The notes below the pieces were generated by a model. The model had not been told where the DNA came from. It ran no database searches and saw only the letters and a list, made by a program, of their open reading frames with translations. Positions 11,318 through 33,276 of a stretch of DNA of 33,459 nucleotides are shown piece by piece; within the stretch, counting starts at the first letter, position 1; every line of letters begins with the position of its first letter. This DNA comes from an uncultured Bacilli bacterium (GTDB lineage: Bacteria; Bacillota_I; Bacilli_A; RF39; UBA660). The stretch covers positions 1 through 33,459 of the forward strand of contig CANRCA010000005.1 in assembly GCA_947628985.1 (NCBI GenBank). Direction: 5' to 3'. The translations under genes were made by a program, and so were the position numbers.

Positions 11318-12823
11318 ATGAATTTAAATATAATAGAGTTAATGAATTATGATTTTGGTAAATTTATAAAATTAGTAGAATTAGGAATTATTGATGAAGA
11401 AAAAGCTTGTAAGTCTGTTATTCAAAGTAATACTCCTGTCTATATTTATGAGTTTGCAAGAAGTATAAAATCTTCAAATATAGAAAAACTAGAAGATGCG
11501 ATAATTCAAACTAAAAGTGTAGAATTTATTTTTGAATTTGCTAAAAATATTAAAAGATCAAATAAGGAAAAATTAGAAGATGCGATAATTCAATTAGAAA
11601 ATATAAAATATATTTATTGGTTTGCTTATGGTATAAAAGGCGTTAATGTAGAAAAACTAGAAAATGCAATTATTCAATCTGAAAATGCAGAGTATATTTA
11701 TAAATTTGCAAGTGATGAATTTATAAAAGTTAAAAATATAGAAAAATTAGAAGAAGCAATTATTAAAACAAAAGATGCAAAATATATTTATGAGTTTGCA
11801 AGTGATGTAGAAAATTCAAATAAAGAAAAGTTAGAGGATATAATAATTCAATTAGGAAATACAAAGTATATTTATTGGTTTGCTTATGGTGTAAAAGGTG
11901 TTAATGTAGAAAAACTAGAAAATGCAATTATTCAATCTGGAAATGCAGAATATATTTATAAATTTGCAAGTGATATAAAAAATTCAAATAAAGAAAAGTT
12001 AGAAAAAGCAATAATTCAAACAGGAAATGCAGAGTATATTTATAAATTTGCAAGAGATATAGAAAATGTAAATATAAAAGAATTAGAAGATGCAATAATT
12101 CAAAGTGGAGATGCAGAATATATTTATGCTTTTGCTAAGTTTATAAAAGAAACTAACATAAAAGAACTAGAAAAAGCGATAATCCAAACAGGAGATGCAG
12201 AATATATTTATAATTTTGCAAATTTTCTAAGAAATGAAAGATATATAAAAGTATCAGAAATAGAAAAATTAGAAGAAGCTATAATTAAAAGTAAAAATGC
12301 AGAATATATTTATTATTTTGCAAGAGATATAGTAGGGGATAATATAGAGGAATTAGAAGATGCATTAATTTGCACTAAAGATGCTAGATATATTCAATTA
12401 TTTGCTCTTAATATAGATGGTGCAAATATAGAAAAACTAGAAAATGCAATTATTCAAACTGGGGATCTTTTTTATATTGATTCTTTTGCTTCTATTATAA
12501 AAGGGTCAAATATAGAAAAATTAGAAGACACAATAATTAAAAGTGGAAATGCAAAATATATTTATAATTTTGCAAAATATATAAAAGGTGCTAATATTAA
12601 AAAATTAAAAGCTGCAATCAATAAAACTAAAAATGATGAATTTATACTTCTTTTTGATGAAGAATTAAAAAGAATAAATAAGGAAAATTTATCAAATTTA
12701 ATGATGCTTTTAGAAAATAAACAATATCGAGAAATATTAGAAAATAGTGAAATATATTCACAATTATTTAATGATGATACAGAAGAAGAAAAACATTCAG
12801 AAAAAATTTTAAAAATCAAATAA
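11318..12823 (+). CDS. Alpha-solenoid-like protein of fourteen 28-residue repeats
   Basis: A 501-residue protein, not recognised by name. After an N-terminal cap (1-53) it consists of 14 units (54-453) with the pattern N(I/V/K)EKLEDAIIQ, then TGNAEYIYKFA, then a short linker. Each unit can form two short helices, so a curved solenoid for binding a protein or peptide is the likely shape. Ten units or more keep EYIY.FA-type cores. Unit 3 carries two extra residues and unit 9 six. Residues 454-501 form a diverged, charged tail. No signal peptide or membrane helix. Good site AAAGGAGAG before the ATG. It lies next to a Fic gene but has its own promoter. Confidence 0.8.
   Translation: MNLNIIELMNYDFGKFIKLVELGIIDEEKACKSVIQSNTPVYIYEFARSIKSSNIEKLEDAIIQTKSVEFIFEFAKNIKRSNKEKLEDAIIQLENIKYIYWFAYGIKGVNVEKLENAIIQSENAEYIYKFASDEFIKVKNIEKLEEAIIKTKDAKYIYEFASDVENSNKEKLEDIIIQLGNTKYIYWFAYGVKGVNVEKLENAIIQSGNAEYIYKFASDIKNSNKEKLEKAIIQTGNAEYIYKFARDIENVNIKELEDAIIQSGDAEYIYAFAKFIKETNIKELEKAIIQTGDAEYIYNFANFLRNERYIKVSEIEKLEEAIIKSKNAEYIYYFARDIVGDNIEELEDALICTKDARYIQLFALNIDGANIEKLENAIIQTGDLFYIDSFASIIKGSNIEKLEDTIIKSGNAKYIYNFAKYIKGANIKKLKAAINKTKNDEFILLFDEELKRINKENLSNLMMLLENKQYREILENSEIYSQLFNDDTEEEKHSEKILKIK
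11477..12676 (+). repeat. Fourteen tandem 84-base coding repeats
   Basis: The units begin at residues 54, 82, 110, 140, 168, 196, 224, 252, 280, 314, 342, 370, 398 and 426 of the protein. Units 2-3 and 5-6 are nearly identical (both contain YIYWFAYG.KGVNVEKLENAI), and units 1 and 4 are alike, so a block of three units was duplicated recently. The DNA around 11610-11710 and 11870-11970 shows the same near-identity. Confidence 0.85.
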
Positions 12824-23948: not shown

Positions 23949-23981
23949 TTAAATATAAGATAGAGAAAGGAAGGTATGAAA

Positions 23982-24437
23982 ATGAAAAGTAAGAAAGGTT
24001 TTACATTAGTAGAATTATTAGCAGTAATCGCTATTTTAGCAATTTTAGTAATTATAGCATTACCAAATATTTTAAATCTATATAGAAATGCAAGAAAGAA
24101 TGTATTTGTAGAAGAAGCACAAAATGTTCTTAGAACAGCTCAACAAAAATATTTAGAAGATTCATTAACAGCAACTACATCTACACCTTGTTATTCAACA
24201 CTTGAATCAGGAACACCATTAGATTTAGATGCTAAATCATCATTGAAATATGCTGTACAATTTGGTGCAGATGGAAATGTATCTGCTGTACATGTAAGTG
24301 ATGATAATTATTCTATTAAAATTACAACTGGACCAGTTAAAATTGAAAGCTTAACATCATCTGGTGTTCAAACTAAAGGAAATTCAGCAGAAAAATATAC
24401 TGCAGTAAGTGCTTGCCCTCCAGTAGCAGATGAATAA
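23982..24437 (+). CDS. Type IV pilin-like protein, copy 1
   Basis: Class III-signal pilin or pseudopilin, 151 residues. Leader MKSKKG is cut before Phe by a prepilin peptidase, then FTLVELLAVIAILAILVIIA forms the assembly helix, with Glu5 of the mature protein present. The head has TPCYST, LDLDAKSSLKYAVQF and a final SACPP; the two Cys could close a disulfide loop. Start: the ATG at 23976 is in frame, but copy 2 shows that the second ATG (here 23982) is the shared one. No pilus motor, platform or peptidase gene is in the window. Confidence 0.88.
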   Translation: MKSKKGFTLVELLAVIAILAILVIIALPNILNLYRNARKNVFVEEAQNVLRTAQQKYLEDSLTATTSTPCYSTLESGTPLDLDAKSSLKYAVQFGADGNVSAVHVSDDNYSIKITTGPVKIESLTSSGVQTKGNSAEKYTAVSACPPVADE

Positions 24438-24463
24438 TTAAAAATACAATAAAACAATAATTT

Positions 24464-24503
24464 AAAAGACTATTCAAAATAACGATGTGAATAGTCTTTT
24501 ATA
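24464..24503 (+). terminator. Terminator of pilin gene 1
   Basis: Perfect 12-base stem AAAAGACTATTC (24464-24475) / GAATAGTCTTTT (24489-24500). The same stem recurs after pilin 3. Confidence 0.75.
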
Positions 24504-24551
24504 ATGCAAAGTAAAAAAATAAAATTATAATGTAAAGTAAAAAAAATAAAA

Positions 24552-24580
24552 TTGACATTTTGAATATATATATATATAAT
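24552..24580 (+). promoter_or_regulatory. Promoter of pilin gene 2
   Basis: TTGACA (24552-24557) and TATAAT (24575-24580), spacer 17. (TA)7 at 24565-24578 runs through the spacer into the -10 box. Confidence 0.88.
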
Positions 24581-24614
24581 TTAAATATAAGATAGAGAAA
24601 GGAAGGTATGAAAT

Positions 24615-25073
24615 ATGAAAAATAAGAAAGGTTTTACATTAGTAGAATTATTAGCAGTAATCGCTATTTTAGCAATTTTAGTAATTATAGCATTACCTAA
24701 TATTTTAAACTTATATAGAAATGCAAGAGAAAATGTATTTGTAGAGGAAGCACAAAATGTACTTAGAACAGCACAACAAAAATATTTAGAAGATTCTATG
24801 AATAATACTGCTGTAGAATGCTATTCAACTGATGAAGGACATCAATTAGACCTAGATGCTAAATCATCATTACATTACTATGTTCAAATATCAGGTGGAA
24901 AAATTGTTAAATTACAAGTTGAAGATGGAAATTATCAACTAGTAGCAGATGGAAGCAGTACTGGAGCAGAAATAAAATTAGATCAATTAGGTAATAAATC
25001 TTCTAACAAAACATATAAATCTGCTGCTTATGCTAATTTAACTGTTACTAAATGTCCAACACCTGGTGCTTAA
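24615..25073 (+). CDS. Type IV pilin-like protein, copy 2
   Basis: 152 residues, leader MKNKKG, and an N-terminal helix nearly identical to copy 1 (one visible change, NARENVF for NARKNVF). The head differs: VECYSTDEG, LDLDAKSSLHYYVQIS and a final TKCPTPGA, keeping both Cys and the LDLDAKS motif. The ATG at 24608 is out of frame and meets a stop within six codons, so translation starts at 24615. It has its own promoter and terminator. Confidence 0.88.
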   Translation: MKNKKGFTLVELLAVIAILAILVIIALPNILNLYRNARENVFVEEAQNVLRTAQQKYLEDSMNNTAVECYSTDEGHQLDLDAKSSLHYYVQISGGKIVKLQVEDGNYQLVADGSSTGAEIKLDQLGNKSSNKTYKSAAYANLTVTKCPTPGA

Positions 25074-25090
25074 TTATTATGTCAATGATT

Positions 25091-25115
25091 AAACTGCTTA
25101 AGTGAGCAGTTTTTT
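25091..25115 (+). terminator. Terminator of pilin gene 2
   Basis: Stem AAACTGCT (25091-25098) / AGCAGTTT (25105-25112), loop TAAGTG, then a T run. Different from the terminators of copies 1 and 3. Confidence 0.8.
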
Positions 25116-25129
25116 AATGTAAAGTTATA

Positions 25130-25160
25130 TTGACATTTCGAATATATATATATATATAAT
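25130..25160 (+). promoter_or_regulatory. Promoter of pilin gene 3, with a longer TA spacer
   Basis: TTGACA (25130-25135) and TATAAT (25155-25160), spacer 19 because the repeat is (TA)8 at 25143-25158. One unit more than copy 2, and less favourable for RNA polymerase than 17. Confidence 0.8.
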
Positions 25161-25193
25161 CTAAGTATAAGGTAGAGAAAGGAAGGTATGAAA

Positions 25194-25643
25194 ATGAAAA
25201 GTAAGAAAGGATTTACATTAGTAGAATTATTAGCAGTAATCGCTATTTTAGCAATCTTAGTAATAATAGCATTACCAAATATTCTAAATCTATATAGAAA
25301 TGCAAGAAAGAATGTATTTGTAGAAGAAGCACAAAATGTACTTAGAACAGCACAACAACAATATTTACAAGATTCATTAACTTCAACTACATCTAATCCT
25401 TGTTATTCAAATACTGTTAGTGGTAAAACTGCGCTAGATTTAGATGCTAAATCAACATTAAAATATGCTGTACAATTTGCAGTAGATGGAACTGTAGATG
25501 CTATACATGTAAGTGATAGTAATTATTCTATTAAACTAACAACAGGTTCAATTAAAATTGAAGACTTAAAATCAGATGGCATTGCTGAAACTCTTGAAGC
25601 AGTATCAGCAACAGCATGTCCTACAAAATCAGACGGTGATTAA
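25194..25643 (+). CDS. Type IV pilin-like protein, copy 3
   Basis: 149 residues from the ATG at 25194 (an in-frame ATG lies at 25188). The leader MKSKKG and the helix are identical to copy 1; the head is closest to copy 1 (NPCYSN, LDLDAKSTLKYAVQF, final ATACPTK). It is the last pilin before the sequence changes character at about 25735. Confidence 0.88.
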   Translation: MKSKKGFTLVELLAVIAILAILVIIALPNILNLYRNARKNVFVEEAQNVLRTAQQQYLQDSLTSTTSNPCYSNTVSGKTALDLDAKSTLKYAVQFAVDGTVDAIHVSDSNYSIKLTTGSIKIEDLKSDGIAETLEAVSATACPTKSDGD

Positions 25644-26115: not shown

Positions 26116-27402
26116 ATGAATTTAAACTATGCAATATTTAGAAGCGAACCAATAATGACTATAAATGATTTAGCACAAATTGGATCACACAATAAAAGAG
26201 AAAAAAAGGCTTATAATTCAAATCCAGATATAAATATTGAAAAAAGTAAAGATAATATAGAACTTGTCCCTTTAGCTGATAAATATGTTAAGGGGTTTTA
26301 TAATATTGTAAAAGATTATAGAAAAGAACACGAAGAAAGAATGAAAACAGAGCGAGTTGATAGAAAAAAGACTTTTAAACAAATGTTAGATAAATCAAAT
26401 AATGTTGTTGCTGATGAATTATTATTTACTGCTACAAATGAGTTTTTTAAAGACATGACTAGAGATGATATTAAAGAATGGGCTAATACTTGTATGGAGT
26501 TTGTTTATAATGATTTAGGATATACCAAAGAACAAGTTTTACACGCAACAGTTCATTTAGATGAAAAAACACCACATATTCATTGTGTTGTTGTTCCACT
26601 TATTAAAAAGTTTGATAAACGAACTAATACTGTAAGATATACTATTTCTAAAAAACAATATATCAAAGATAAAGTTCATTTATCTGAATTACAAGATAAA
26701 TACCACGAAAGACTTACTTCTAAAGGTTATGATTTAGAAAGAGGCATTAAAGGTAGTGATAGAGAACATATAAAAATTAAAGATTATAAAAAGATTAATA
26801 GAAAACTAGAACAAAATCTAAATACTAGAAATGATAGATTAGATAAAGTTATGAATGAATTTGAAGAAAAAATGAAAACTACTAAAACAATTCCTTTTGA
26901 TAAGAAACATATTATTGTAGAAAAAGATACTTTTGATACAATGAACAAAGTTATTAAAGAGTCTAAAAAAATTATGGAATTACAACCTAAAATAAACCAA
27001 GTATTTAATGAAGTAGATAGTTATGTTAGTAGTTATAATTTACTAGAAAAAGATAATCAAAAATATCAAAGAGAAATCAAATCATTAAAAACTAGAAATG
27101 GTAATCTTCTACAGGAAAATAACAAATTAAAATCTTATATAAGTACTATTTTAGATGTCATAAAGAAGTTTTTTAGAAAACTATTACAAATTGGAAATGA
27201 ACCCGCAAAAGAAGCTACCACGAGCGAAATAAAAGAGTATTATGATGATAAAAATTTTGATTCTAATGATGTCTATGATATTTCAAAAGGTACTACTAAA
27301 GAAAATGAATTATTTGATTATGCAGGAATACCTAGTTATTTAAAAACTAGCAGAAATTCTTATGCTGAGAACGAAAAGGATGATTATGAGATAAGTATAT
27401 AG
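26116..27402 (+). CDS. mob: MOBV-family relaxase (Mob/Pre)
   Basis: Nicks the origin of transfer and leads DNA into a recipient; the mark of mobilizable plasmids and integrated elements. 428 residues. N-terminus NYAIFRSEPI, then GSHNKREKKAYNSNPDI, and the metal-binding motif HLDEKTPHIHCVVVPL (H-x-D-E-x-T-P-H-x-H) are the family landmarks. A long coiled coil follows (about 230-350; LLEKDNQKYQREIKSLK and further), and the tail is acidic. Site GTGAGG before the ATG. Neither a replication protein nor an integrase is in the window, so whether the element is an integrated mobilizable element or a captured plasmid is open. Confidence 0.92.
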   Translation: MNLNYAIFRSEPIMTINDLAQIGSHNKREKKAYNSNPDINIEKSKDNIELVPLADKYVKGFYNIVKDYRKEHEERMKTERVDRKKTFKQMLDKSNNVVADELLFTATNEFFKDMTRDDIKEWANTCMEFVYNDLGYTKEQVLHATVHLDEKTPHIHCVVVPLIKKFDKRTNTVRYTISKKQYIKDKVHLSELQDKYHERLTSKGYDLERGIKGSDREHIKIKDYKKINRKLEQNLNTRNDRLDKVMNEFEEKMKTTKTIPFDKKHIIVEKDTFDTMNKVIKESKKIMELQPKINQVFNEVDSYVSSYNLLEKDNQKYQREIKSLKTRNGNLLQENNKLKSYISTILDVIKKFFRKLLQIGNEPAKEATTSEIKEYYDDKNFDSNDVYDISKGTTKENELFDYAGIPSYLKTSRNSYAENEKDDYEISI

Positions 27403-27465: not shown

Positions 27466-27477
27466 GAGGTGTTTATA

Positions 27478-28821
27478 TTGAATATATTAGTAATTAATCC
27501 ACCAAACAAACCATTTACAAACGAGTCAATACTTGCTGAACCAATTGATGTTTTACAAGTTGCAACAATAATTAAACAAAAGTATGAAAATGTTATGGTT
27601 ATTGATATGGATGTTAATAGAATGGAAAATAATATAAATGATTATTTAAAGGATGATAATATTATTGTTTTTGTATATGATTATCAGTTACCATTACATA
27701 CCAGTGATACTGTTGCTAATATGTTTGAAATTATTAACAATACTAATAAAAAATCAAAATTTATTATTATTGGTAAAACATCTTCATATTATTATGAAAA
27801 ATTCCTTAATAATGGTTTTGATGTAGTTATAAATGGAATAGTAGATGATTCAATTATTAAAGTAATTGACGGTTTTGTTAATGAGAAAGATCTGTCTATA
27901 ATTCCAAATATTGAAATAAAAAAAGAAAATGAAATTATAATTACAGAAAAGACCAAAATTGATAATAAATTTGATTTGTTGAAATATCCAGATCGTAGTT
28001 TTATAGATTTGGATAAGTATATGGATACCAGAACTATGATTACTTCAAGAGGATGTATAGGAAAATGTAGTTTTTGTACTACTCCAACTTTTTTTGGAAA
28101 TTGGAATGGTAAAAATTCAAAGCAAGTTGTTGATGAAATAGAGTATTTAATAAATAACTTTAATACTAAAAAAATCATGTTTTTAGACGACAATATGACA
28201 GTAAATAAAAAAAGAATGTATGAAATTTGTAATGAAATTGAAAATAGAAAAATTAAATGCTTATTTGGTTGCTTAAGTAGTATAATTTGTTATGATAAAG
28301 AAATGTTTATCAAAATGTATTCAGTCGGATTTAGATGGATTCATTTTGGGATTGAGTCTGGAAGCCCAAAAATTTTAAATCTTATGAATAAACCCATGGA
28401 CATAAAAAATATTAAACAAATTATAAAAGAAGTAAAAATAATTGGATATAGAGTAAGAACTAGTTTTATATTAGATTATCCAGGCTCAACAAAAGAAGAT
28501 ATTATAGCTACAAGGAATTTAATTAACGAATTAGAACCACATGAATTAAGATTACACTATTTAGCATATAGAGTTGGAACACCAGTTTTTGAAAATAATA
28601 AAAATATAAAAAATAAAACTCAATATATTCATAGTAATCATCCAAATATTGAAAATGATGAATTAACTGAAGAAATTAATTTATTAATAGATGATTTAGC
28701 AAAAAAAGGTTATAAATTAGTATTTGATGATGTTAATTGGAATAAATATAATTTATTAGATAAAAATACAAAATTTGCATCATTTATTCCAATAAAATAT
28801 GGGATGTGTTGGTATGAATAG
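27478..28821 (+). CDS. Radical SAM enzyme with N-terminal B12-binding-like domain
   Basis: 447 residues. Residues 1-140 have the alternating Rossmann pattern of B12-binding domains of the class B radical SAM group (NILVINPPNKPF; VIDMDVNRME; FDVVINGIVDDSI); a DxHxxG motif is not visible, as is usual in this group. The radical SAM core has RGCIGKCSFC (Cys193, 197, 200), then IMFLDDNMTVNK and WIHFGIESGSPKIL. Such enzymes often methylate unreactive carbons. Start: GTG 27469 is part of the site AAAGAGGTG, so TTG 27478 is chosen (MNILVINPP). It ends eight bases inside the next gene. First gene of the modification cluster. Confidence 0.88.
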   Translation: MNILVINPPNKPFTNESILAEPIDVLQVATIIKQKYENVMVIDMDVNRMENNINDYLKDDNIIVFVYDYQLPLHTSDTVANMFEIINNTNKKSKFIIIGKTSSYYYEKFLNNGFDVVINGIVDDSIIKVIDGFVNEKDLSIIPNIEIKKENEIIITEKTKIDNKFDLLKYPDRSFIDLDKYMDTRTMITSRGCIGKCSFCTTPTFFGNWNGKNSKQVVDEIEYLINNFNTKKIMFLDDNMTVNKKRMYEICNEIENRKIKCLFGCLSSIICYDKEMFIKMYSVGFRWIHFGIESGSPKILNLMNKPMDIKNIKQIIKEVKIIGYRVRTSFILDYPGSTKEDIIATRNLINELEPHELRLHYLAYRVGTPVFENNKNIKNKTQYIHSNHPNIENDELTEEINLLIDDLAKKGYKLVFDDVNWNKYNLLDKNTKFASFIPIKYGMCWYE

Positions 28822-30262
28822 ACTTATAGGAATTACTGGTGAAATGTCATCAGGTAAAACAACATTAGCAAAGAAATTAATTAAACTTAATCCAAATTTT
28901 ATCTACATTGATGTTGATGAATTTAGAAGGAGCTTATATGATAACTCAAGTTATATAAATGAACTGAAATTAAGTATAAATGAGTTAAAACAATATGAAA
29001 AAATAGATTCATTAATTCTTAATCAATATATCTATAATGATAATAAAAAGATGGAGCAATATAAAAAAATTTTATATAAATATCTATTTGAATATATAAA
29101 ATCTTTTTCAAATAAAACCATTGTTATTGATTGGGCTTTAATTGTTAATGATGGTTTAATAGATAAATTTGATAAAATTATTTATTTAAATATTTCTGAA
29201 GATATAAGATTATCAAGATTAAAAAATAGTGATTTAACTAAAAGAGAAATTTTAAGAAGATTTGAATTACAAAAAATAAATAATATTAATGATTATGAAT
29301 CTGAAAACTTTATGATAGTAGGTGAAAATATGAATATTGATAAAATTAATGATTTTATAAATTCTATGGAGTGTAAATTTACTCTACCAGAAGATGGAGG
29401 AAAAGTTATATGGGAAATCACTCATAATTGTAATTATGGATGTTCATATTGTATTTTTTCTTGTGATAAAAAACGAGTTGATGATGAATTAACTACTCAA
29501 GAATGTTTTCATGTAATAGATGAATTGGTTAATAATGGTTTTAAATATTTAAAAATAACAGGTGGAGAACCATTTATTAGAAAAGATATAATTGAAATAT
29601 TAGCATATGCTAGTAAAAATTTAATTGTTGATATTTCTACTAATGCATCATTGATAACAGATGAAATTGTATCAAAATTAAATGAAATAAATTTAAAAAT
29701 GATTCATGTTAGTTTAGATGGCAATAAGGAAGAACATGAATCTGTTAGAGGAAAACTAACTTATGATAGAACAATTAGGGGATTAAATGCACTAAGAAAA
29801 TCTAAAAATAAAGTAAGGATTGGATCTGTAATCCATGCTAATAATGAAAATAACTTAGAAAATTTAATAAAGGATTCAATTAATCTTAATACTAATGAAA
29901 TTATATTTTCAATAATGGAACCAGTAGATGGCCAAAGTAAATCACTTGTAAAAACTATTTCCAATGATGCATTGATTAAAAATATTGATAAATTAAAAGT
30001 AAAATATCAAGATAATATAATTGTAAATTATAATTTTGGTAAACAGCCAATCTTTGTTAAAAAATGCCCTGCAGGTGATAAATTCTTATATATAAATAAT
30101 ATGGGATTTGTTAGTCCATGCCCATGGGTATATGAAAATAACAAAAATTGTATTTCTAAAAAATCATTGAGAGATAACGAATTAAAAGAAGTTTTGAAAG
30201 ATAACAATATTTCATTGTTTTTATCAGAAAAGTTTAAAGGTGTATGTTATGGAAAAATTTAA
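28814..30262 (+). CDS. CoaE-like kinase fused to a SPASM-type radical SAM enzyme
   Basis: A two-part protein of about 482 residues. Residues 1-190: P-loop kinase, GITGEMSSGKTT (Walker A), YIDVDEFRRSLYD, and YLNISEDIRLSRL with REILRRFELQ, a layout like dephospho-CoA kinase. From about 195: radical SAM core with CNYGCSYC (Cys206, 210, 213), ITGGEP, and HVSLDGNKEEHESVRG. The C-terminal part has a Cys-rich twitch/SPASM-like region (KCPAGDKFLYI, SPCPWV, VCYGKI), typical of peptide-modifying enzymes. I know of no named family with this fusion. ATG at 28814; an in-frame ATG lies at 28799. It overlaps both neighbours. Confidence 0.85.
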   Translation: MNRLIGITGEMSSGKTTLAKKLIKLNPNFIYIDVDEFRRSLYDNSSYINELKLSINELKQYEKIDSLILNQYIYNDNKKMEQYKKILYKYLFEYIKSFSNKTIVIDWALIVNDGLIDKFDKIIYLNISEDIRLSRLKNSDLTKREILRRFELQKINNINDYESENFMIVGENMNIDKINDFINSMECKFTLPEDGGKVIWEITHNCNYGCSYCIFSCDKKRVDDELTTQECFHVIDELVNNGFKYLKITGGEPFIRKDIIEILAYASKNLIVDISTNASLITDEIVSKLNEINLKMIHVSLDGNKEEHESVRGKLTYDRTIRGLNALRKSKNKVRIGSVIHANNENNLENLIKDSINLNTNEIIFSIMEPVDGQSKSLVKTISNDALIKNIDKLKVKYQDNIIVNYNFGKQPIFVKKCPAGDKFLYINNMGFVSPCPWVYENNKNCISKKSLRDNELKEVLKDNNISLFLSEKFKGVCYGKI

Positions 30263-31079
30263 TAGTATCTATTCTTTCACAACAGAAAATATTGCAGGAT
30301 ACATGAGTAAACTAGATTTAACTGATAAAAAAATAATTACTGTTACTGGATCATCAGATCATATAATTAATGCTATTTTAAGAGGTTGCTTAGATATAAC
30401 AACATTTGATATAAATCCACTTACAAAATATTATATGGATTTAAAATTATCTGCAATAAAAGAATTATCATATAATGAATTTTTAGATTTTTTGCTATAT
30501 AATACAGAAAAATCATTTTCTTATGAAATAATTATTAAGTTAAATATGGAAGATGAGAGCAAAATGTTTTGGTTAAAGGAATTAGTAAATAATGATAATG
30601 ATGGTTTGAAAATGAAACATTCCAATTTGTTTAATTTAAAATATTTTGATGCTCAAAATAAAATTGATTGTAATTTATATCTGAAACAAGAAAATTATGA
30701 TATAATTAAAGATAGATTGGAACTTGTAAAAATAAATTTTATAGAATCCAATTTAAAAGATTTAGAAATTATTGAAAATTATGATTATATGTTTTTATCA
30801 AATATATCTGATTATATTAATACTTTTTATGAAGATAATTATTTGATTAACTATAAAAATTTAATTTTTAGGTTTTTAAAAAATGTAAAAAATATATATT
30901 TTGCTTATGTATATGATATTGATAACAAAATTAAAAGAAGTGTTATTGATGACTTGAAAAATGTTCAAGAAGTTTTTGGAAATATTAAAATTCAAAAATT
31001 TAAAAGTGCATTGCTTAATCAAAACAAAGATACCGAGGATGCAGTATTTATAAAGGAGGAAAATAAAAATGGAAAGTAG
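30249..31079 (+). CDS. SAM-binding Rossmann-like protein, possible aminocarboxypropyl transferase
   Basis: 276 residues. The start SIYSFTTENIAGYM, then IITVTGSSDHIINAIL and CLDITTFDINPLTKYYMDLK, reads as the glycine-loop and acidic second strand of a SAM-binding fold. The DINPLxKYYxxLK region resembles the DUF3419/BtaA group, which moves the 3-amino-3-carboxypropyl group of SAM rather than methyl. This is a pattern-level call; an ordinary methyltransferase is possible. Start: GTG 30240 overlaps the site AAAGG; ATG 30249 is preferred. It overlaps the previous gene and the next one by 11 bases. Confidence 0.6.
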   Translation: MEKFNSIYSFTTENIAGYMSKLDLTDKKIITVTGSSDHIINAILRGCLDITTFDINPLTKYYMDLKLSAIKELSYNEFLDFLLYNTEKSFSYEIIIKLNMEDESKMFWLKELVNNDNDGLKMKHSNLFNLKYFDAQNKIDCNLYLKQENYDIIKDRLELVKINFIESNLKDLEIIENYDYMFLSNISDYINTFYEDNYLINYKNLIFRFLKNVKNIYFAYVYDIDNKIKRSVIDDLKNVQEVFGNIKIQKFKSALLNQNKDTEDAVFIKEENKNGK

Positions 31080-31557
31080 AAGTAGTGAAAGTAGTTATGG
31101 ATTTGGTGGATATTCAGGGGGATATTCATCAGAAAGCAGTTATGCTAGTGAAAGTCGTAATAGTTATAGACCATCATCATCATTTAGTAGCAAAAGTGCA
31201 TTAGAAAGTAGACCTTCAATCGTTTCAGCTGAAAGTCGAGCAACAAGTTTTAGTTCTGAAAGTAGAGGTATGGGTATTCAAACATCTATCACAAAACCAA
31301 AAACACAATATAATTCTTTAGATGATATTGATAAATTAATCGAAAGATTAGAAGCATCTTTTGGAACTACACAAGTTACTAGCGAAAGAGCTAATCAAAT
31401 TTTAGCCCAAAGAAAACAAAAAATTGAATCTTTAAAACAATTAGTTGCTGATGCTAGAAAAGCAGAAACTGAAGAAAGAATTATTCAACAACTAGAACAA
31501 GAAAATAGTGAACTTGATGATGCTATTGATAGTATGAATAAAGGATTTCATAGATAA
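31069..31557 (+). CDS. Ser/Tyr/Gly-rich repeat protein, probable substrate of the modification cluster
   Basis: 162 residues, no Cys. Residues 1-75 are low-complexity, Ser-, Tyr-, Gly- and Arg-rich, with seven Glu-Ser motifs: ESR at 2-4, 28-30, 46-48, 55-57, 64-66 and ESS at 7-9, 22-24. The last three ESR are exactly nine residues apart. Residues 82-162 form a helical, charged domain (DDIDKLIERLEASFG; RIIQQLEQENSELDDAID). It has the best ribosome binding site in the cluster, AAAGGAGG at 31052-31059, and lies between radical SAM genes and an ATP-grasp gene. I read it as a precursor or carrier protein whose N-terminal part is modified and whose helical end is recognised. A surface or scaffold protein is the alternative. 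Confidence 0.7.
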   Translation: MESRSSESSYGFGGYSGGYSSESSYASESRNSYRPSSSFSSKSALESRPSIVSAESRATSFSSESRGMGIQTSITKPKTQYNSLDDIDKLIERLEASFGTTQVTSERANQILAQRKQKIESLKQLVADARKAETEERIIQQLEQENSELDDAIDSMNKGFHR

Positions 31558-32597
31558 TGGAAAACATATATAAAGATTTACATTCTAATCAAAAAATTTT
31601 TATATATGAAATGCTTAAAAGAGGAATAAATGTTGAAATAATTGATGTTGAAAGAGAGATTATTAAATCATCATACAATGGACATGATGAATTAATATGT
31701 GATAGAGATTCTTCTATAATGCCTTATAATGTTTCAATATTAGCTGGTGATAAAGGATTTACAAAAAAGAATTTGATGATGAATGGAATATCAGTTCCTA
31801 TTGGAGAAACTTTTTTAGCTAAAGATATTGATTATATTCTAAAGACATTTAGAGTATTGAATTGCCCTGTTGTAATTAAACCTGTATTTGGTTCGCATGG
31901 TTTTGATGTATATACTGATTTAAAAACAGAAAAAGACATTTCTAATGCGATTAAAAGTATTATTGAACATAGAGGAGATTTAACAAAAATAATTATTGAA
32001 GAATATTATCAAGCACAAGAATATAGAGTGTTTGTTACTAAAAATGGTGATTATGCAGTATTACTTCGTGATCCTGCTCACATTTATGGTGATGGTATTA
32101 ATACAATTGAATATTTAATTAAAAAAGAAAATTATGAAAGAATGAATCCTAGAACAAATGCTTTATGTGAAATATTAGTTGATGAAGAATTATTGAAATA
32201 TTTATCAAAAAAAGGATTATCTTTACAGAGTATTCCAGCAAATGGAGAAAAAGTTTATTTAAGACCAAATTCTAATGTTGCTATGGGTGGTATTTGTGAA
32301 GATTATACCGATAGAGTTCATCCAAGTGTTATAGAAATTGGTTTAAATGTTCTAAAGGCTTTTCCAGGATTGCCTTATGTTGGTATTGATTTTATGACAA
32401 ATTCAATAACAGAAATGCAAACTGATGATAGTTATAGAATTATTGAAATAAATACTGTTCCAGGTGTTCATATGCATTTTAGACCAGCAATTGGTAAATC
32501 TCAAAATATTGCAAAATATATAGTTGATATGATTTATCCTGAAACAATAGAAAACAAAGAGGAAGTATTAGATGAAAAACCTATTAAAAGACTCTAA
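31557..32597 (+). CDS. ATP-grasp ligase of cyanophycin-synthetase/GshF type
   Basis: 346 residues, a free-standing ATP-grasp. VVIKPVFGSHGFDVY is the ATP lysine and glycine loop; EYRVFVTKNGDYAVLLRDPA and YGDGINTIEYLI match the RVxVxxGxxxAxxxRxPAxxxGDG pattern of CphA and GshF; IEINTVPGVHMHF holds the metal-binding Glu and Asn. The Mur-ligase half of CphA and the GCL half of GshF are absent. These enzymes form amide bonds with an acyl-phosphate intermediate, so this one probably adds an amino acid to a carboxylate, such as a Glu of the neighbouring protein. Its start overlaps the previous stop by one base (TAATG). Confidence 0.85.
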   Translation: MENIYKDLHSNQKIFIYEMLKRGINVEIIDVEREIIKSSYNGHDELICDRDSSIMPYNVSILAGDKGFTKKNLMMNGISVPIGETFLAKDIDYILKTFRVLNCPVVIKPVFGSHGFDVYTDLKTEKDISNAIKSIIEHRGDLTKIIIEEYYQAQEYRVFVTKNGDYAVLLRDPAHIYGDGINTIEYLIKKENYERMNPRTNALCEILVDEELLKYLSKKGLSLQSIPANGEKVYLRPNSNVAMGGICEDYTDRVHPSVIEIGLNVLKAFPGLPYVGIDFMTNSITEMQTDDSYRIIEINTVPGVHMHFRPAIGKSQNIAKYIVDMIYPETIENKEEVLDEKPIKRL

Positions 32598-33276
32598 AGC
32601 ATATTATGAAAATAATGACTATTATGAGATTTTTAGTCAAGCCGAAGATTATGAAAGTAAAGTTGCTGAATATTTAAATAGCATTTCTAAAAATAAAGTG
32701 GTTTTAGATGCAGGTTGTGGGACAGGTAAATTTCTAAAAGTTTTAGAAAACAATGCCAAGGAATATATTGGTATTGATTTATCTAACGATCAATTATCAA
32801 AAGCAAAAATAAAATCAACTAATAAAAGATCGAAATTTATTTGCTCTAATTTATCAAAAATACCCCTAGATGATGGTTCAATCGATTTAATAATTTCTTC
32901 TTGGGTATTGGGTACAATAACTGATATTGAAGAAAGAAATAATGTTGTATGTGAACTTAAACGAATTTTAAAGTCAAATGGTATTATTATATTGGTTGAA
33001 AATTCTGAAAATAGTGAATTTGAAATAATTAGAGGTAGGGATAAAGACACTAGAACAAAAGAGTATAATGATTGGATTTTAGAAAATGATTTTATATTGG
33101 ATTGTAAGTTCAATACTTATTTTAAATTTAAATCATTAGAAGAAGCAAAAAAGTGTTTTGAAGTTATATATGGTAGCAAAATTGCTTCTAAAATAGCAAG
33201 TGACAAAATAGAACATAAAATTGACATATATAAATTTAATCAAATAAAAAGCAAAAATCCAAAAGAAACTTCGTAA
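32572..33276 (+). CDS. Class I SAM-dependent methyltransferase
   Basis: 234 residues. Motif I is VVLDAGCGTGKFLKVL, motif II YIGIDLSNDQLSKAK, and the DLIISSWVLGTI and LKRILKSNGIIILVE segments complete the fold. It belongs to the Methyltransf_11/25 type found in natural-product clusters. GAGGAAG about seven bases before the ATG; it overlaps the ATP-grasp gene by 26 bases. Last gene of the cluster. TTG Leu codons are used freely, unlike in the core genes. Confidence 0.87.
   Translation: MKNLLKDSKAYYENNDYYEIFSQAEDYESKVAEYLNSISKNKVVLDAGCGTGKFLKVLENNAKEYIGIDLSNDQLSKAKIKSTNKRSKFICSNLSKIPLDDGSIDLIISSWVLGTITDIEERNNVVCELKRILKSNGIIILVENSENSEFEIIRGRDKDTRTKEYNDWILENDFILDCKFNTYFKFKSLEEAKKCFEVIYGSKIASKIASDKIEHKIDIYKFNQIKSKNPKETS

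Follow-up and report, generated by a model that had tools for sequence, protein, structure and literature searches.

The window analysed here, a stretch of 33,459 nucleotides from an uncultured Bacilli bacterium, encodes a CoaE-like P-loop kinase joined in one chain of 482 aa to a radical-SAM/twitch enzyme (28814..30262, forward strand). The fusion belongs to a rare but conserved six-gene cassette, which probably decorates chemically a small protein with repeated Glu-Ser (ES) motifs, in the manner of a RiPP-like system. In what we consider the best explanation, the fusion would be the second enzyme of a mobile cassette modifying this ribosomally made protein, with phosphoryl transfer and radical chemistry coupled to each other, a proposal that we put at slightly under an even chance.

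As the original prediction held, the frame of the fusion is uninterrupted, running from the ATG at 28814 to the stop codon ending at 30262; an in-frame ATG at 28799 is an alternative start, which would add 5 aa. The expected architecture of CoaE, Radical_SAM and SPASM was recovered for the first two domains in Pfam: PF01121 matches residues 4–153 with 38.3 bits (cut-off 27), placing the protein in the CoaE family, and Radical_SAM matches residues 201–353 with 90.8 bits, whereas the match of SPASM (PF13186) to residues 418–475 scores 15.4 bits, under the cut-off of 21.5. The kinase domain, delimited also by fold matches and by alignment with the CoaEs of the order, covers about residues 1–183 (28814..29362, +), and is followed by the radical-SAM domain with its partial SPASM/twitch C-terminus (29363..30259, +). 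In the predicted structure (mean pLDDT 73, pTM 0.52, from five sequences), pLDDT is low at the junction and in parts of the C-terminus, and the relative placement of the domains is of low confidence. Residues 1–190 of the model match dephospho-CoA kinases in fold (Z up to 16.0; 8dv0) and residues 203–475 match SuiB, SkfB and PqqE (Z 18.7–19.1).

Full-length fusions with 64–78% identity are present in four other species (L032, G048, G191 and G202). In a fifth, G235, the gene spans a contig break, with residues 1–106 ending contig C119 and the in-frame remainder, including the LID, beginning C55. Such recurrence points to neither chance nor assembly error. By contrast, in G181 the kinase and the radical-SAM enzyme are two ORFs in different frames with a 53-base overlap, so that the kinase part does occur as a separate gene in a related cluster. 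The split pair and the fragmented state of the genome of the window (G000; a draft in 95 contigs, 67.8% complete) could be taken to mean that a sequencing error or frameshift had merged two genes, the outcome by which the original prediction would have fallen. However, the fusion is found in six separate genomes, and its recurrence in independent assemblies rules such an artefact out, leaving it a negligible probability. Beyond the order, no further fusions were detected at E 1e-28 among 395 genomes of the class and 392 of the phylum, and the architecture accordingly looks restricted to this order within the sampled genomes. Searches of viral contigs yielded as relatives only 28% matches over a short radical-SAM stretch, and no plasmid record covered 80% of the fusion query. 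Matches in G025 and G190 (about 33%) sit in other gene contexts, without the kinase.

All seven loci share the same gene order: a B12-type radical-SAM protein, the kinase–radical-SAM fusion (or the split pair of G181) as gene 2, a DUF3419 protein, the ES-motif protein, an ATP-grasp enzyme and a methyltransferase. Most neighbours within the cassette overlap or stand a few bases apart, whereas the flanking genes differ at every locus. A search of the order (385 genomes) recovered the cassette at high identity from six, each belonging to a genus of its own. This patchy occurrence and the changing flanks fit a horizontally moving accessory cassette. A promoter scan gave a result equal to chance. 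Directly upstream of the cassette in the window lies a gene for a MobV-family relaxase (26116–27402), a possible trace of the movement of the cassette. Elsewhere in the window, three tandem pilin-like genes (23976–25643) encode proteins that are almost the same at the N-terminus but diverge in the C-terminal part, and a 501-aa protein (11318–12823) consists of repeats like 'NIEKLEDAIIQTGNAEYIYEFA', with no convincing family match.

The first cassette gene (27469..28821, +) overlaps the fusion gene by 8 bases and encodes the B12-type radical-SAM protein (Radical_SAM, 68 bits), for which the best NCBIfam models, TIGR04014 (MJ_0865-type) and a PhpK-type model, score far under cut-off. In G202 (L037 9994–11324), this gene is in two ORFs, a frameshift of either the genome or the assembly. 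Gene 3 (30249..31079, +) encodes a DUF3419 (BtaA-family-like) SAM-dependent transferase, with a PF11899 match of 49.4 bits (cut-off 28.2) that covers only positions 5–119 of 385. Its structural model (pLDDT 90) has a class-I SAM fold, and we found no solved structures related to it by sequence. In the fold search, spermine synthase leads (Z 13.0) with methyltransferases close behind, a mixture from which the type of transferase cannot be told. The DUF3419 family includes betaine-lipid synthase (PMC10685587), and the 3-amino-3-carboxypropyl group of SAM is what is transferred there. By its partial match, the gene 3 product can tentatively be assigned to the family of this synthase, and the same transfer is its putative activity. 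The order shows an expansion of the DUF3419 family (125 of 288 genomes), and G015 carries about fifteen DUF3419-like genes in tandem (L056 1461–17000). Gene 5 (31557..32597, +) encodes an ATP-grasp amide ligase of the cyanophycin-synthetase/GshF type: TIGR02068 matches with 231 bits over the ATP-grasp part, and cyanophycin synthase 7wac is hit with an E-value of 4e-42. Cyanophycin synthase and GshF link amino acids via acyl phosphates. The last gene (32572..33276, +) encodes a class-I SAM methyltransferase (Methyltransf_11, 77 bits). Neither a protease nor a leader motif nor an exporter was found within the cassette; the sole exporter is a neighbour in G202, a C39-peptidase peptide-export ABC transporter (L037 3041–5155) just downstream of the cassette and absent beside the others.

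The kinase half retains the CoaE fold, a Walker A motif (GEMSSGKTT), D33 and D35 followed by FRR (DVDEFRR), and R132 and R135 of the LID. In the alignment, the Walker A Lys, the strand-2 acidic residue and the two LID Arg are kept in all cassette kinases covering these positions, and the CoaE-like kinase with a LID region that had been read from the window is conserved across seven species. The strand-2 acidic residue is a feature used by dephospho-CoA kinases (PMC10853773). The cassette kinases nevertheless differ from CoaE in several respects. DVDxFRR stands where most CoaEs of the order have a DxDxxGH-like stretch; the third LID Arg (Arg-Asp, within KRD in most CoaEs of the order) is replaced, the position reading Ser-Asp, or Ile-Asp in G181, so that catalysis could be altered; the kinase is fused to a radical-SAM enzyme; and the host often lacks CoaD. 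In the tree, a branch with 100/100 support separates the cassette kinases from the order's own CoaEs. Judged from this alignment and tree, the acceptor side of the cassette kinases is remodelled and the kinases form a clade of their own.

Given the family match and the fold, the fusion might be read as a dephospho-CoA kinase supplying CoA to its host. However, neither CoaD nor any other CoaE scores above cut-off in four hosts (G000, which is 67.8% complete, G191, G202 and G629), leaving these with no above-threshold match for the enzyme that makes the substrate, whereas three others (G048, G235 and G181) encode a separate CoaE. It is thus very unlikely that the cassette kinase is present for CoA making. 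CoaE matches are also scarce across the order (12 of 193 genomes), which suggests that the final step of CoA synthesis has been lost in much of the order. Together with the well-supported branch, this host gene content rules out a CoA-supply role, to which we leave only a very small residual probability; the dephospho-CoA-kinase-like domain of the original prediction stands as a family and fold assignment, without the role in CoA synthesis. In G181 (L062 1501–2529), CoaE and CoaD apparently lie within one open reading frame.

The loss of one LID Arg and the remodelled acceptor side, along with the lower conservation of the kinase half (53–71%, versus 66–83% for the radical-SAM half), would also suit a kinase domain that uses ATP to fold, gate or regulate the radical-SAM enzyme and passes no phosphate to the product. 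This we consider unlikely: a scaffold needs no complete catalytic set, yet the cassette kinases that cover these sites retain Walker A, the strand-2 Asp and two LID Arg, and in G181 the kinase is a gene of its own. dN is lower than dS in 10 of 10 pairs for both the kinase half and the radical-SAM half, indicating that selection maintains both and arguing against a dead kinase.

The radical-SAM half carries the C206-x3-C210-x2-C213 motif, invariant in all seven relatives, which together with the profile match places it in the radical SAM superfamily. Two further Cys, 187 and 231, are invariant as well. At the C-terminus, three Cys are conserved throughout the seven relatives (C418, C436 and C478). 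A full SPASM domain has seven C-terminal Cys and two auxiliary clusters, with PF13186 above cut-off, whereas SkfB-like partial SPASM/twitch domains have three or four Cys after the radical-SAM barrel, as here. The radical-SAM part of the earlier 'SPASM-type' label was therefore correct, and the SPASM part is better read as a partial SPASM/twitch. The best PDB sequence match of this half is the peptide maturase SkfB (6efn, 61 bits), and its best NCBIfam models are AhbD, NirJ1, StsB and the mycofactocin maturase, all far under their cut-offs. This half is similar to maturases of peptides and tetrapyrroles that have a partial SPASM.

The main rival to an ES-motif Ser as the phosphate acceptor is a small molecule or nucleotide, and both types of acceptor are plausible. 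In this alternative, the acceptor of the kinase half would be a small molecule, nucleoside or nucleotide, whose phosphorylated form would then be transformed, or attached to the ES-motif protein, by the radical-SAM half or by the remaining enzymes. The substrate site of CoaE is the ribose 3′-OH of a nucleotide, and such a system would be reminiscent of prokaryotic viperins, a group with some kinase-associated members: in PADLOC, the radical-SAM half scores 70 bits with pVip, a model described as 'associated with kinases', VakA matches the kinase half weakly (18 bits), and viperins are among the fold matches of the model (Z 16.6). Against this, the models of AhbD, NirJ, StsB and the mycofactocin maturase outscore the viperin model, the radical-SAM half has its three invariant C-terminal Cys, and every locus encodes a dedicated ES-motif protein. 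We regard this alternative as possible, if on the unlikely side. A viperin identity of the radical-SAM half itself can be rejected, since its NF038283 score of 61.8 bits falls far short of the cut-off (180), although the PADLOC viperin models match.

The likely substrate is the product of gene 4 (31069..31557, +), composed in the window of an arm at the N-terminus, in which ES[R/S] occurs seven times, and a conserved helical domain. Across the seven loci, these proteins (142–215 aa) combine a common, recognition-like helical domain (YNSLDDIDKLIE..R..KL.ELK.L) with low-complexity arms carrying repeated [S/G]-E-S-[R/S/N]. RiPP systems, by comparison, have a short precursor with a leader and a core that undergoes modification once translated. 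The ES motifs noted in the original prediction are real: each of the seven proteins contains 4–10 ES[R/N/S], versus about 0.6–1.5 expected from composition shuffles. The arm is N-terminal in five of seven proteins, whereas G181 has it at the C-terminus and G048 on both sides of the helical domain; retention of the motif while the arm moves is the behaviour that would be expected of a substrate motif read by enzymes. The proposed link between the kinase–radical-SAM enzyme and this protein also held, the two being conserved together across seven species, and in the eight genomes searched, the ES-motif protein was found solely inside the cassette. No family name was found for it in the libraries searched, which gave weak coiled-coil-type matches under cut-off. 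A further segment, ESRG[IL]SY..WLKT.PW...GGLSS..EMH, is common to the ES-motif proteins at L032 7297–7878 and L037 7093–7740, and is duplicated in G202. At L032 12554–13943, a methyltransferase gene is followed by one for a small Ser/Cys-rich protein resembling another peptide substrate.

In the proposed coupled modification of the ES-motif protein, the helical domain would recruit the enzymes, and the kinase half would transfer the γ-phosphate of ATP to a hydroxyl group, whose most likely bearer is the invariant Ser of the ES motif or a moiety constructed on that Ser. Abstraction of a hydrogen adjacent to the phosphorylated site, by the radical-SAM half, would follow. The phosphate might be a lasting mark or might serve as an activating or leaving group, the part that it plays in class III/IV lanthipeptide synthetases. 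The ATP-grasp enzyme would form an amide on a carboxylate, either that of the motif Glu or one that the DUF3419 enzyme has attached, and the last steps would fall to the methyltransferases. With the two halves fused, or in G181 translated from overlapping genes, both activities would stay on the same substrate. This explanation is supported by the unchanged order of the six genes in seven species whose flanks are unrelated, with the kinase and radical-SAM parts fused in six and split in one; by the intact kinase residues, dN below dS and the likeness to SkfB, SuiB and PqqE; and by the ES enrichment despite moving arms, the confinement of the partner to the cassette and the C39-peptidase exporter of G202. 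The replaced LID Arg, the low confidence in the relative placement of the two domains and the lack of a cassette protease, leader motif or exporter, the G202 neighbour apart, count against it, as does the fact that, to our knowledge, CoaE-fold enzymes are known for phosphorylation of small molecules, not of protein. A more specific version, in which the CoaE-fold kinase phosphorylates the repeated E-S Ser, the radical-SAM enzyme of the same chain acts there, and aminocarboxypropyl transfer and ATP-grasp ligation complete a novel side chain, appears rather unlikely as a whole.

Several known systems resemble parts of the cassette. With SkfB and other sactipeptide SPASM-type maturases, the fusion shares the fold and a partial SPASM ending in Cys-x-Gly-Lys, but it has a kinase at the N-terminal place, its putative ES-motif substrate has no Cys-rich core, and the cassette adds a DUF3419 protein and a cyanophycin-type ATP-grasp enzyme. 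Prokaryotic viperins with their kinase (pVip/VakA) likewise pair a kinase with a radical-SAM enzyme, although the viperin model scores far under cut-off and the cassette adds four other enzymes as well as the dedicated ES-motif protein. In class III/IV lanthipeptide synthetases, a kinase is joined to a second catalytic domain and both act on Ser of one precursor; the kinase fold of the fusion is unrelated to theirs, and its second domain is a radical-SAM enzyme, not a lyase or cyclase. The BtaA/BtaB betaine-lipid pathway also combines a DUF3419 transferase with a methyltransferase, whereas the cassette contains no lipid genes, and its DUF3419 protein is shorter and linked to a putative substrate that is a protein. 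Finally, graspetide clusters comprise an ATP-grasp enzyme, a radical-SAM maturase and a ribosomal precursor (PMC8939145), a combination that the cassette would share, with the ES-motif protein as the putative precursor, but the cassette ATP-grasp enzyme is of the cyanophycin-synthetase/GshF type and no graspetide model is among its NCBIfam matches.

Each part of the cassette belongs to a known family, whereas neither the CoaE–radical-SAM fusion nor the six-gene combination was found in the families, genome samples and open-access literature searched, and both appear undescribed within that literature, in which no paper was found to report a P-loop small-molecule kinase in fusion with a radical-SAM enzyme. 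The lineage carrying the cassette has small genomes of about 1–1.6 Mb, mostly without a detectable CoaE. Compact, conserved and equipped with an obvious candidate substrate, the cassette opens a way into new protein-modification chemistry that can be tested directly.
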